From: Candidatus Gastranaerophilales bacterium
GTDB lineage: Bacteria > Cyanobacteriota > Vampirovibrionia > Gastranaerophilales > Gastranaerophilaceae
Reading direction: 5' to 3'
DNA length: 64,000 bases
Assembly (NCBI GenBank): GCA_944325075.1
Contig: CALUYU010000001.1
Span: 62,001-126,000, forward strand
Shown: positions 709-29,396 of the stretch, in pieces
Layout of the letters: each line of letters begins with the position of its first letter
Numbering within the stretch: position 1 is the stretch's first letter
The notes under the pieces: generated by a model
Database searches by the model: none
What the model saw: the letters and a program-made list of their open reading frames with translations, nothing else
What the model was told of the DNA's origin: nothing
Position numbers and translations under genes: made by a program

Positions 709-1545
709 TTATTTACACTTATGTTTACCACTCCAGCTAAGATCATCGCACTTAAGATAGTCCATATTCTCGTTATAAATTACCCAGGCCGTACAACCGT
801 AACCGTTATAGTTTTTTGCTGTATTGGCCAAGCAATAATTATCAAATGAATATTTTGTATCATCTGTTTGCCCCATAGGCAGTATTTTGTTTTTATATAT
901 GTAAAAATAAAATATATCACGGCCAACAATATTTGGACGATTGAGCCCATTAAGATCTACAGAAAAATTTCCGCAAATTTCATTTTTATTGCAATTTATA
1001 TTATCAATCCAGCCACCGGAAAAAATTGCTCCATCATTTAAAATTAACTTTGGCTCGCGCATTGTAGAAATACTATTACTACCTAATTGAGAAACTGCAT
1101 AAGGCTTACATTGATTTTCATAATCCAGACATCTTTTTAAGGTTTTTAAGTAAGACTCAAAAGTACTCCAAAACAAGTTCATACTCTTGACTGTTTCCTC
1201 AGAATTATTTATTTCTCCGGTATCAGGATCAACAACATGTGAGGAATTTGAAATCCCCCAGTTATCAATAGTACCAAGGTCATTTTGAGCTTGTAAATAT
1301 GCCTGATTAACTATACTATAAACCTTTTTTAGTCGTGTAACAGTTTCTTTTGCCTGATAATTATTTATTAAAGTCGGTAATGTCATCGCGGCAACAACTC
1401 CGATTATGCCTAGGGTTATAAGGACCTCAGCGAGAGTAAACGCGACCTTGCGAGGCGAGGGGGAGGATGGTAAAAAAACTTCCGCCAGAGTAAATGCAAT
1501 TCTACGAGGCGATAAATAGTTCTTGTTGTTGGGTTGAAAACCCAA
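709..1545 (-). CDS. Type IV prepilin-like protein (pseudopilin)
   Basis: The product carries the class III signal RKVAFTLAEVLITLG followed by a hydrophobic alpha1 helix of about 20 residues, then a globular domain with several Cys. It ends CTAWVIYNENMDYLKC...SWSGKHKCK, nearly identical to the end of the gene at 28185-29396. Such proteins are cleaved by a prepilin peptidase before the Phe and built into a pilus or pseudopilus. Oddities: the start is unclear (TTG at 1545, no Shine-Dalgarno), residue -1 is Ala rather than the usual Gly, and the FTLAEV motif is repeated 18 residues upstream (IAFTLAEVFLP). The leader overlaps a dispersed palindromic repeat, so the true start may be nearer the second motif. 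Confidence 0.8.
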   Translation of the reverse strand: MGFQPNNKNYLSPRRIAFTLAEVFLPSSPSPRKVAFTLAEVLITLGIIGVVAAMTLPTLINNYQAKETVTRLKKVYSIVNQAYLQAQNDLGTIDNWGISNSSHVVDPDTGEINNSEETVKSMNLFWSTFESYLKTLKRCLDYENQCKPYAVSQLGSNSISTMREPKLILNDGAIFSGGWIDNINCNKNEICGNFSVDLNGLNRPNIVGRDIFYFYIYKNKILPMGQTDDTKYSFDNYCLANTAKNYNGYGCTAWVIYNENMDYLKCDDLSWSGKHKCK

Positions 1546-27543: not shown

Positions 27544-27893
27544 AAATAAAGCAGCCGGATAATCGCGCTTTAACAAAAGTGAGGAAAGTCCGTGCATCCA
27601 AGGACAGATTGCCGGAGAAAGTCCGGACGGTGTGAACCGGTGGATAGGACCACAGAAATGTAGACTGCCGATGGATTTATCTAAATCACAGGCGATGGTG
27701 CAACGGTGAGGTAAGAGCGTCACCGGCGGTATTGAGAAATACCGGCCAGGCAACCCCCAATCGGATGCAAGATTAAATGGAAGGTTTTAAGGTTGTCCGC
27801 TACTTCCGAAAATCGCTAGAGATTGAAAGTAATTTCAATACCAGACAGATGATTATCTTGAAACAGAACACGGCTTATGAGCTGCTTTATTTT
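27544..27893 (+). ncRNA. rnpB: RNase P RNA, bacterial type A
   Basis: The catalytic RNA that matures tRNA 5' ends. The core is easy to see: GAGGAAAGTCCGTGC (CR-I) near 27580, ACAGAAATGTAGACTGCCG, the GGTGCAACGGTGAGGTAAGAGCG block near 27700, CAACCCCAATCGGATGC-like P14 region, and the closing ACAGAACACGGCTTATG (CR-V) near 27862. The ends AAATAAAGCAGC and GCTGCTTTATTT pair perfectly as P1 and are followed by T7, which acts as terminator. Frames reported inside it are not genes. Confidence 0.97.
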
Positions 27894-27923
27894 TTTAGCT
27901 TAGTAGAATAATGGACACAGATA

Positions 27924-28050: not shown

Positions 28051-28085
28051 CTTACTTTTTTCTTTAGCACAAAGAAAAAAGTAAG
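28051..28085. repeat. Palindromic repeat, 15-bp arms, loop AGCAC
   Basis: CTTACTTTTTTCTTT and AAAGAAAAAAGTAAG are perfect arms around AGCAC, preceded by CTGAA and followed by CAAAAAAGAAAGCG. A sister copy lies at 28410-28442. Confidence 0.85.
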
Positions 28086-28134: not shown

Positions 28135-28162
28135 TTGAAAAATAAGAAAAATAATGTATAAT
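28135..28162 (+). promoter_or_regulatory. Strong promoter of the 28185 gene
   Basis: TTGAAA (28135-28140), 16-base spacer and perfect TATAAT (28157-28162), followed by AAGGAGG at 28171 and ATG 28185. Confidence 0.7.
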
Positions 28163-28184
28163 AAAAGAAAAAGGAGGTAAATAT

Positions 28185-29396
28185 ATGGGAAAGTCAAGTA
28201 TAGTACGGCATACGGGGGGGGGGGGTAACGAACCTCAAGGGAGACAAGGGTTTTTGTCAAAAATACCTTTCTTCAAATTTTTCACCAAATCAAAGTTTTC
28301 TGTATCAAACGTAAATAAATATTATGTTGGGGTGAAACCCCAACCTACATTTAACTGTGTGGGATTTATAGGAAAAAGATCAATAAAAAATTTACAATGT
28401 CATCCTGAACTTACTTTTTCTTTAGCACAAAGAAAAAGTAAGCAAAAAGAAAGCGCTACTGGGTGGTTGTCTAAGCAATTATGTCATCCTGAACTTGTTT
28501 CAGGATCTTGCCACCGAAACATTATACCGTCGCCAGAAAACATCAACAATATACCCTCTGCGTCTCGTACAGCGCAGCGTCATGTAAGAGGGGACTTAGT
28601 CCCCGCATTTACTCTTGCAGAGGTCTTTTTACCATACTACCACTCGCCTCGCAAGGTTGCATTTACACTTGCAGAAGTTCTAATAACCCTTGGCATAATC
28701 GGAGTAGTGGCTGCGATGACTTTACCGACTTTGATAAATGATTATAAGGCTAAAGAAACTGTTACACGCTTAAAAAAGGTTTATAGTATTTTAAATCAGG
28801 CATACCTGCAAGCTCTAAATGATCTTGGAACTATTGATAATTGGGGGATTTCTGAGTCACAACTTGAAGAAGATCCGGACACCGGTGATATGGTTGTAGG
28901 AGATCTGGCTCAGAACAGCGCAAATTTATTTTGGAGCCGTTTGAAACCATATTTGAAAACAATTTCATCATGCCTTGATTCTGACGACGACCGATGTGCT
29001 ACATATCCACATTTTTACTTAGGATCTTCAACTTCCAGAGGGGATTATATCCCCCGTATAGTTTTAAATGATGGCACTATTTTTTCAGGAGGATGGGTAA
29101 ATAACTTAAATTGCCAGGGGGATACTCATTGTGTAGATTTCTCTGTTGATCTTAACGGCTCAAATCGTCCTAATGTTGTCGGCCGAGATATATTTTATTT
29201 TAGAGTATATAGTAATAGGATAAGTCCTATGGGAATAAATGGAGACAATAGACGTTCATTTGAGGATTATTGCTTACGCAATACAGCAAAAGATTATAAC
29301 GGTTACGGTTGTACTGCTTGGGTGATATATAATGAGAATATGGATTATTTAAAATGCGACGGCTTAAGCTGGAGTGGTAAACATAAGTGTAAGTAA
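28185..29396 (+). CDS. Type IV prepilin-like protein with G12 tract and repeat-derived leader
   Basis: The last 250 residues form a prepilin: SPRKVAFTLAEVLITLG, a hydrophobic alpha1 helix, a globular Cys-containing domain and the end CTAWVIYNENMDYLKC...KHKCK shared with the 709-1545 gene. The expression signals are excellent (promoter 28135, AAGGAGG, ATG 28185), but the first 145 codons are odd: MGKSSIVRH, then a run of 12 G coding for four Gly, then three dispersed palindromes read in frame (HPELTFSLAQRKSKQK, HPELVSGS). FTLAEV occurs twice, 18 residues apart, as in the first gene. A one-base change in the G run would cut off the prepilin, suggesting phase variation; a downstream internal start is the alternative. 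Confidence 0.75.
   Translation: MGKSSIVRHTGGGGNEPQGRQGFLSKIPFFKFFTKSKFSVSNVNKYYVGVKPQPTFNCVGFIGKRSIKNLQCHPELTFSLAQRKSKQKESATGWLSKQLCHPELVSGSCHRNIIPSPENINNIPSASRTAQRHVRGDLVPAFTLAEVFLPYYHSPRKVAFTLAEVLITLGIIGVVAAMTLPTLINDYKAKETVTRLKKVYSILNQAYLQALNDLGTIDNWGISESQLEEDPDTGDMVVGDLAQNSANLFWSRLKPYLKTISSCLDSDDDRCATYPHFYLGSSTSRGDYIPRIVLNDGTIFSGGWVNNLNCQGDTHCVDFSVDLNGSNRPNVVGRDIFYFRVYSNRISPMGINGDNRRSFEDYCLRNTAKDYNGYGCTAWVIYNENMDYLKCDGLSWSGKHKCK
28214..28225 (+). repeat. Homopolymeric G12 tract, ten codons after the start
   Basis: Twelve G in a row in an AT-rich genome, directly behind a strong translation start. Such tracts slip during replication and switch reading frames in many surface-gene families. 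Confidence 0.9.
28326..28348. repeat. Dispersed palindrome GTTGGGG-tgaaa-CCCCAAC-CTAC
   Basis: Sister of the repeat at 1528-1550. One stem has G4/C4, the other G3T/AC3, so the stem is kept although the bases differ. Confidence 0.8.
28410..28442. repeat. Palindromic repeat, 14-bp arms, loop AGCAC
   Basis: CTTACTTTTTCTTT/AAAGAAAAAGTAAG around AGCAC. Compared with 28051-28085 one T is missing on the left arm and one A on the right, so pairing is preserved. Confidence 0.85.
28486..28506. repeat. Dispersed palindrome ATCCTGAA-cttgt-TTCAGGAT
   Basis: This is the widespread bacterial intergenic hairpin whose translation gives HPELVSGS. Here it is read in frame within the prepilin leader. Confidence 0.8.

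Follow-up and report, generated by a model that had tools for sequence, protein, structure and literature searches.

Several described systems resemble the locus reported here. In Bifidobacterium, genes for sortase-dependent pili are toggled by replication slippage at intragenic G tracts, and the in-frame length is selected in vivo (PMC9187656). Deep sequencing of the contingency loci of Neisseria meningitidis confirmed variation in 115 genes (PMC5084427), and poly-G loci are abundant in Campylobacter (PMC539331). Glycosyltransferases are among the Campylobacter poly-G targets. Rickettsia palindromic elements, for their part, are palindromic repeats found as in-frame insertions within coding sequence. 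The open-access literature we searched, which does not cover subscription papers, held no paper pairing Gastranaerophilales with phase variation, and for Melainabacteria and pili it returned ordinary pilus genes only. Here, we investigated a G12 tract in a 64-kb window (the whole stretch of DNA analyzed) from the genome of a Ca. Gastranaerophilales relative (2.26 Mb, 107 contigs). It is very likely, with a probability of roughly 0.85, that replication slippage at this tract, which lies in a prepilin leader, switches the gene on and off, and that the tract belongs to a large family of such switches, most of them OFF. Slippage in cells, export, assembly, and function are inferred.

The tract sits in a forward-strand arrangement that opens with a promoter (TTGAAA-16-TATAAT; 28135..28162) scoring 11/12, whose -35 box is also where the repeated head begins. 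A ribosome-binding site, AAGGAGG (28171..28177), was read from the sequence and is kept in the head copies; the ATG start codon follows at 28185-28187. The G12 tract (28214..28225), proposed as the switch on the basis of shuffles and paralogue lengths, begins in codon 10 of an ORF spanning 28185..29396 and is the only run of eight or more G in the 64-kb window. No G12 appeared in 100 dinucleotide shuffles, so the homopolymer is longer than chance would give. The ORF stays open through the tract into AFTLAEVLITLGIIGVVAAMTLPTLI and encodes 403 amino acids, in which the tract-bearing leader is fused to a prepilin; it includes AFTLAEVLITLGIIGVVAAMTL, the motif that marks the N terminus of type IV-like prepilins. 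An RNase P RNA (27547-27893) lies upstream of the head.

In the G12 register, 390 codons are open beyond the tract. A tract of G13 or G10 places a TAA immediately at the tract, and G11 or G14 closes the frame after about 29 codons. Register translation and the linker frames described below together show that a change in tract length toggles the prepilin reading frame. The original prediction, made from sequence alone, held on each of these points: a promoter, AAGGAGG, and ATG followed ten codons on by G12; the improbability of that run by chance; a frame open into the prepilin at the present length; and its closure by gain or loss of one or two G. An internal start had been named beforehand as refuting, and this found no support at the window locus, where there is no in-frame ATG and no Shine-Dalgarno start between the tract and the prepilin.

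That prediction covered a single locus, and the head recurs across the genome. Using G8-TAANGAAC as the search string with one mismatch tolerated, we found 69 matches to the class-1 head (promoter, ribosome-binding site, ATG, and G run) and none in a reversed control. Many of these copies are located at contig ends. Their tracts differ in length, with 40 at G13, 12 at G12, nine at G14, and three at G11; the remaining five measure 8, 10, 15, 16, and 20 (one each). Across the whole genome, we counted 133 runs of nine or more G. Alignment of 51 upstream regions showed conservation from the -35 box onward, beginning at CTTGAAAAAT, and 50 of the 51 carry a promoter scoring at least 9/12. What is repeated is therefore a full expression module comprising promoter, ribosome-binding site, ATG, and tract. 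Overlapping contig ends searched for length variants within the assembly gave no clean same-locus pair, and viral contigs searched for strain variants gave none.

Between tract and prepilin lies a linker (28226..28658, forward strand) composed of the end of the head and palindromic repeat modules in frame, encoding a long leader; of its three reading frames, only that of the prepilin runs through without a stop. A prepilin follows the head in 47 class-1 copies, and we read through the linker of each. In 41/47 it is open in its own prepilin's frame, over 133–544 bases, against a mean of 7.5 stops in the two non-prepilin frames. Most of the copies read through are OFF as assembled. A complete ON ORF is present in only six, the window's included; one more copy scored ON by the script was left out, its linker being closed. 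Closed linkers occur in 6/47 copies, three of which (C8:39955, C51:4317, and C26:1523) have an internal ATG with a Shine-Dalgarno sequence. Because of this start and the closed linker, the prepilin in these three is probably independent of the head.

Taken on motif, context, and model together, the product is likely a prepilin; cleavage, export, and pilus assembly are inferred. The mature pilin-like protein (28662..29393, forward strand; alignment A1) would have 244 amino acids and begin FTLAEV after Ala at -1. Ala followed by FTLAEVLITLGIIGVVAAMTL forms the invariant core in 18 aligned sequences, and the features of a class III signal are all present (Gly/Ala at -1, Phe at +1, Glu at +5, and a hydrophobic N-terminal helix). 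In an AlphaFold model (m2e3216406f8e, pLDDT 75), a long helix (3-55) forms the N-terminal part, and the C-terminal part is rich in strands. In a VIA-align search of the model, type IV pilins fill the top four rows, but with low Z scores of 3.0–4.2. A Foldseek search of the model gave nothing significant, a Pfam search of the protein gave no match, and a TIGR02532 match of 14.0 bits fell under the cut-off of 16.3. The genome has a prepilin peptidase (PF01478, at C20:11276) and pilus/secretion ATPases of the T2SSE family (PF00437, best match on C37), and the prepilin motif pattern has 143 matches in the genome and none in the control.

The window's leader, at 159 amino acids, is unusual for a prepilin; across copies, leaders measure 58–195 amino acids (median 138), and those of prepilins in general are far shorter. 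The linker modules HPEL, VGVKPQPT, and RHVRGDL are palindromic repeats, mostly in the prepilin frame. The window's linker contains a hairpin, GTTGGGG/CCCCAAC (28326..28344; VGVKPQPT), and a palindrome, CTTACTTTTTCTTT/AAAGAAAAAGTAAG (28410..28442), neither assigned to a strand. A second copy of the palindrome lies 5' of the promoter (28051-28085); both are perfect and of one family, and the promoter and head lie between them. In many copies the linkers are filled, in frame, by related palindromes. Upstream of the real cleavage motif is a partial duplicate of it, AFTLAEVFLPYYHSPRKV (28605..28658, forward strand), of a kind found in 17/41 open linkers. Another prepilin gene in the window (1440-1494, minus strand) has a short leader, no G tract, and the same AFTLAEVF duplicate motif. 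We considered conservation of the head as a sign of a selected leader protein and dropped this idea: a codon-position conservation test found no third-position excess in the head and pre-tract codons. Given that absence, it is likely, though inferred from the codon-position pattern, that only the openness of the head counts, as in a disposable leader.

The mature pilins are diverse, with a median identity of 47% to the nearest paralogue and pairwise dN/dS of 0.09–0.47. The window's mature pilin gives 0.21 against L194, and pairs in which both genes are OFF (e.g., C7:91/C36:22360 and C40:9056/C5:34807) give 0.14–0.28. Because such OFF/OFF pairs show purifying selection, the OFF genes are not in decay, which would fit their being ON in other cells.

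Outside class 1, about 23 of some 30 evaluable tracts have a prepilin motif no more than about 700 bp downstream (manual count). Class 2 heads (ATGCTAAAATTCAATCATAG...) are fused in frame to a prepilin; all 10 copies examined are OFF, nine of them with an open linker, and the ON fraction among these 10 lies below one in three. In class 3 (L225, L231, L226, L232, and others), the stop of a short tract-bearing ORF often overlaps or adjoins the AGGAGG-ATG start of the prepilin, and this wiring might represent translational coupling. A G11 tract outside the window (L214, G000:C1:9365-9375) lies in a glycosyltransferase-like ORF (KGNNKGLKYLDSREGGGGEYIGLFNNDI) and is in frame as assembled.

Among 13 genomes of the genus, the class-1 head occurs only in the window's genome (G000) and in G009, Ca. 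Gastranaerophilales bacterium BRZ_DP__bin38, a second species that was assembled independently. G009 has the same heads with tracts of G11–G14; the in-frame length is G13 for copies without a T after the tract and G12 for copies that have it. Tract length differs in the closest cross-species pair (G10 in C77 vs G12 in L192). Synteny with the window is conserved in G009 (L165) for a DUF711 gene, the next ORF, and the RNase P RNA; homology ends at 27896, just past RNase P, and an orthologous head is absent from the window's site there. The closest G009 pilin to the window's is L194 (69% identical), the head of which is not on its contig. Three further genera have the same plan with different heads. 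Some of the other-genus copies (L234 and L247) have leaders of ordinary length, from which we infer that the long leaders of the window's genome may have grown later. Tracts of G11 or longer number up to about 100 per genome in the window's family and mostly 0–2 in other families of the class. One genome, G147 (genus g9), has about 100; FTLAEVLIT had no match in it, and its pilins read AFTMAEILLSLTIIGVVAAITLPSL.

We weighed four other explanations. If RNA polymerase or ribosomes slipped on the tract, every copy would yield prepilin at a low, constant level regardless of its length in the DNA. Two observations fit this, as if DNA length mattered little: OFF copies are under purifying selection, and the assembly has most copies OFF. 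However, paralogue tract lengths differ, so the DNA itself changes, and the modal length sets a stop right behind the tract, which is a poor design for constant expression. This makes the explanation unlikely. Translation of the prepilin from an internal start, with the head as a separate leader peptide, is supported by the three closed-linker copies that have an ATG with a Shine-Dalgarno sequence, and by several class-3 heads that stop at or next to an AGGAGG-ATG start. It is very improbable as a general account, as the other copies, including the window's, lack such a start and keep the linker open in the prepilin frame.

The heads could also be sites of recombination or gene conversion, the G run being a DNA structure that shuffles promoters among pilin genes. 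Heads are up to 98% identical to one another whereas pilins diverge, and the missing codon-position bias in the head suggests homogenization. Still, this leaves the open linkers unexplained, as well as the unrelated heads in other genera that keep a G run at the same place; we give it little credence, though it is not exclusive and could coexist with slippage. A homopolymer sequencing or assembly artefact can be practically ruled out. The contig-end runs G20 (L113) and G31 (L252) do look artefactual, but internal tracts are found on both strands with conserved flanks and recur in the independently assembled second species. Exact lengths might nonetheless be off by one.

Replication slippage of the DNA tract remains our preferred reading because paralogue lengths differ, linkers are kept open, OFF copies are under purifying selection, and other genera have the same plan. 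These observations are shown directly, as are the tract itself, its register, the copy number, and purifying selection on ON copies. The predicted phase variation of a pilin is thus strongly supported by comparison, and length change within a population is inferred. Under the slippage reading, a ribosome starting from the ATG at 28185 would, at G12, read across the linker and on into a type IV-like prepilin, the expected substrate of the prepilin peptidase encoded in the genome; translation would halt at the TAA directly after the tract with G13 or G10, and within about 30 codons with G11 or G14. With some 70 head modules ahead of different pilin genes, each cell may express a small, changing subset, and such subunit changes may help against immunity or phages. 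The predicted on/off control of pilus production held only in part: the genome has about seventy such switches, every one with its own pilin-like subunit, so that the tract would change which subunits are made, not pilus production overall. Weak points are the few ON copies, a class 2 that is entirely OFF, weak profile matches, the unusual 159-amino-acid leader, and the lack of any sign of selection on that leader. A bolder reading, towards which we lean slightly, is a bet-hedging pilin wardrobe in gut Gastranaerophilaceae: each genome would hold around a hundred prepilins of divergent sequence, a stop directly after a G tract of the commonest length would keep most of them OFF, and slippage would let each cell express a few, with palindromic repeats expanding a disposable leader.

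If this is true, non-photosynthetic gut relatives of cyanobacteria, known mostly from genomes, would be among the richest known users of slippage switches, with those switches gathered on one family of surface proteins. Within one strain, cells would be expected to differ widely in their surface pilins, with consequences for the way these bacteria deal with immunity, phages, or host surfaces. The repeated heads would also account in part for the many contigs of the assembly that end at them. Slippage switching is itself a known mechanism; judging by the open-access literature searched, what is likely new is how extensively it is used on a single pilin family, the lineage in which it occurs, and the palindrome-swollen leaders. 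Like Bifidobacterium, this appears to be a gut commensal with a G-tract on/off switch of pilus genes; however, Bifidobacterium has one or two clusters of sortase pili per genome, and the switches here number about 70 to over 90 and target type IV-like prepilins. Neisseria meningitidis also has many simple-repeat switches per genome, but on many unrelated genes and mostly not by translational frameshift, whereas nearly all tracts examined here are on one gene family. The poly-G runs, the AT-rich gut bacterium, and a glycosyltransferase target (here just one, L214) recall Campylobacter, although the targets here are mostly prepilins, with the tract in the leader. By analogy, and with no homology implied, the in-frame palindromic repeats in coding sequence resemble Rickettsia palindromic elements, but here they occur only in the predicted leader, which would be cleaved off.
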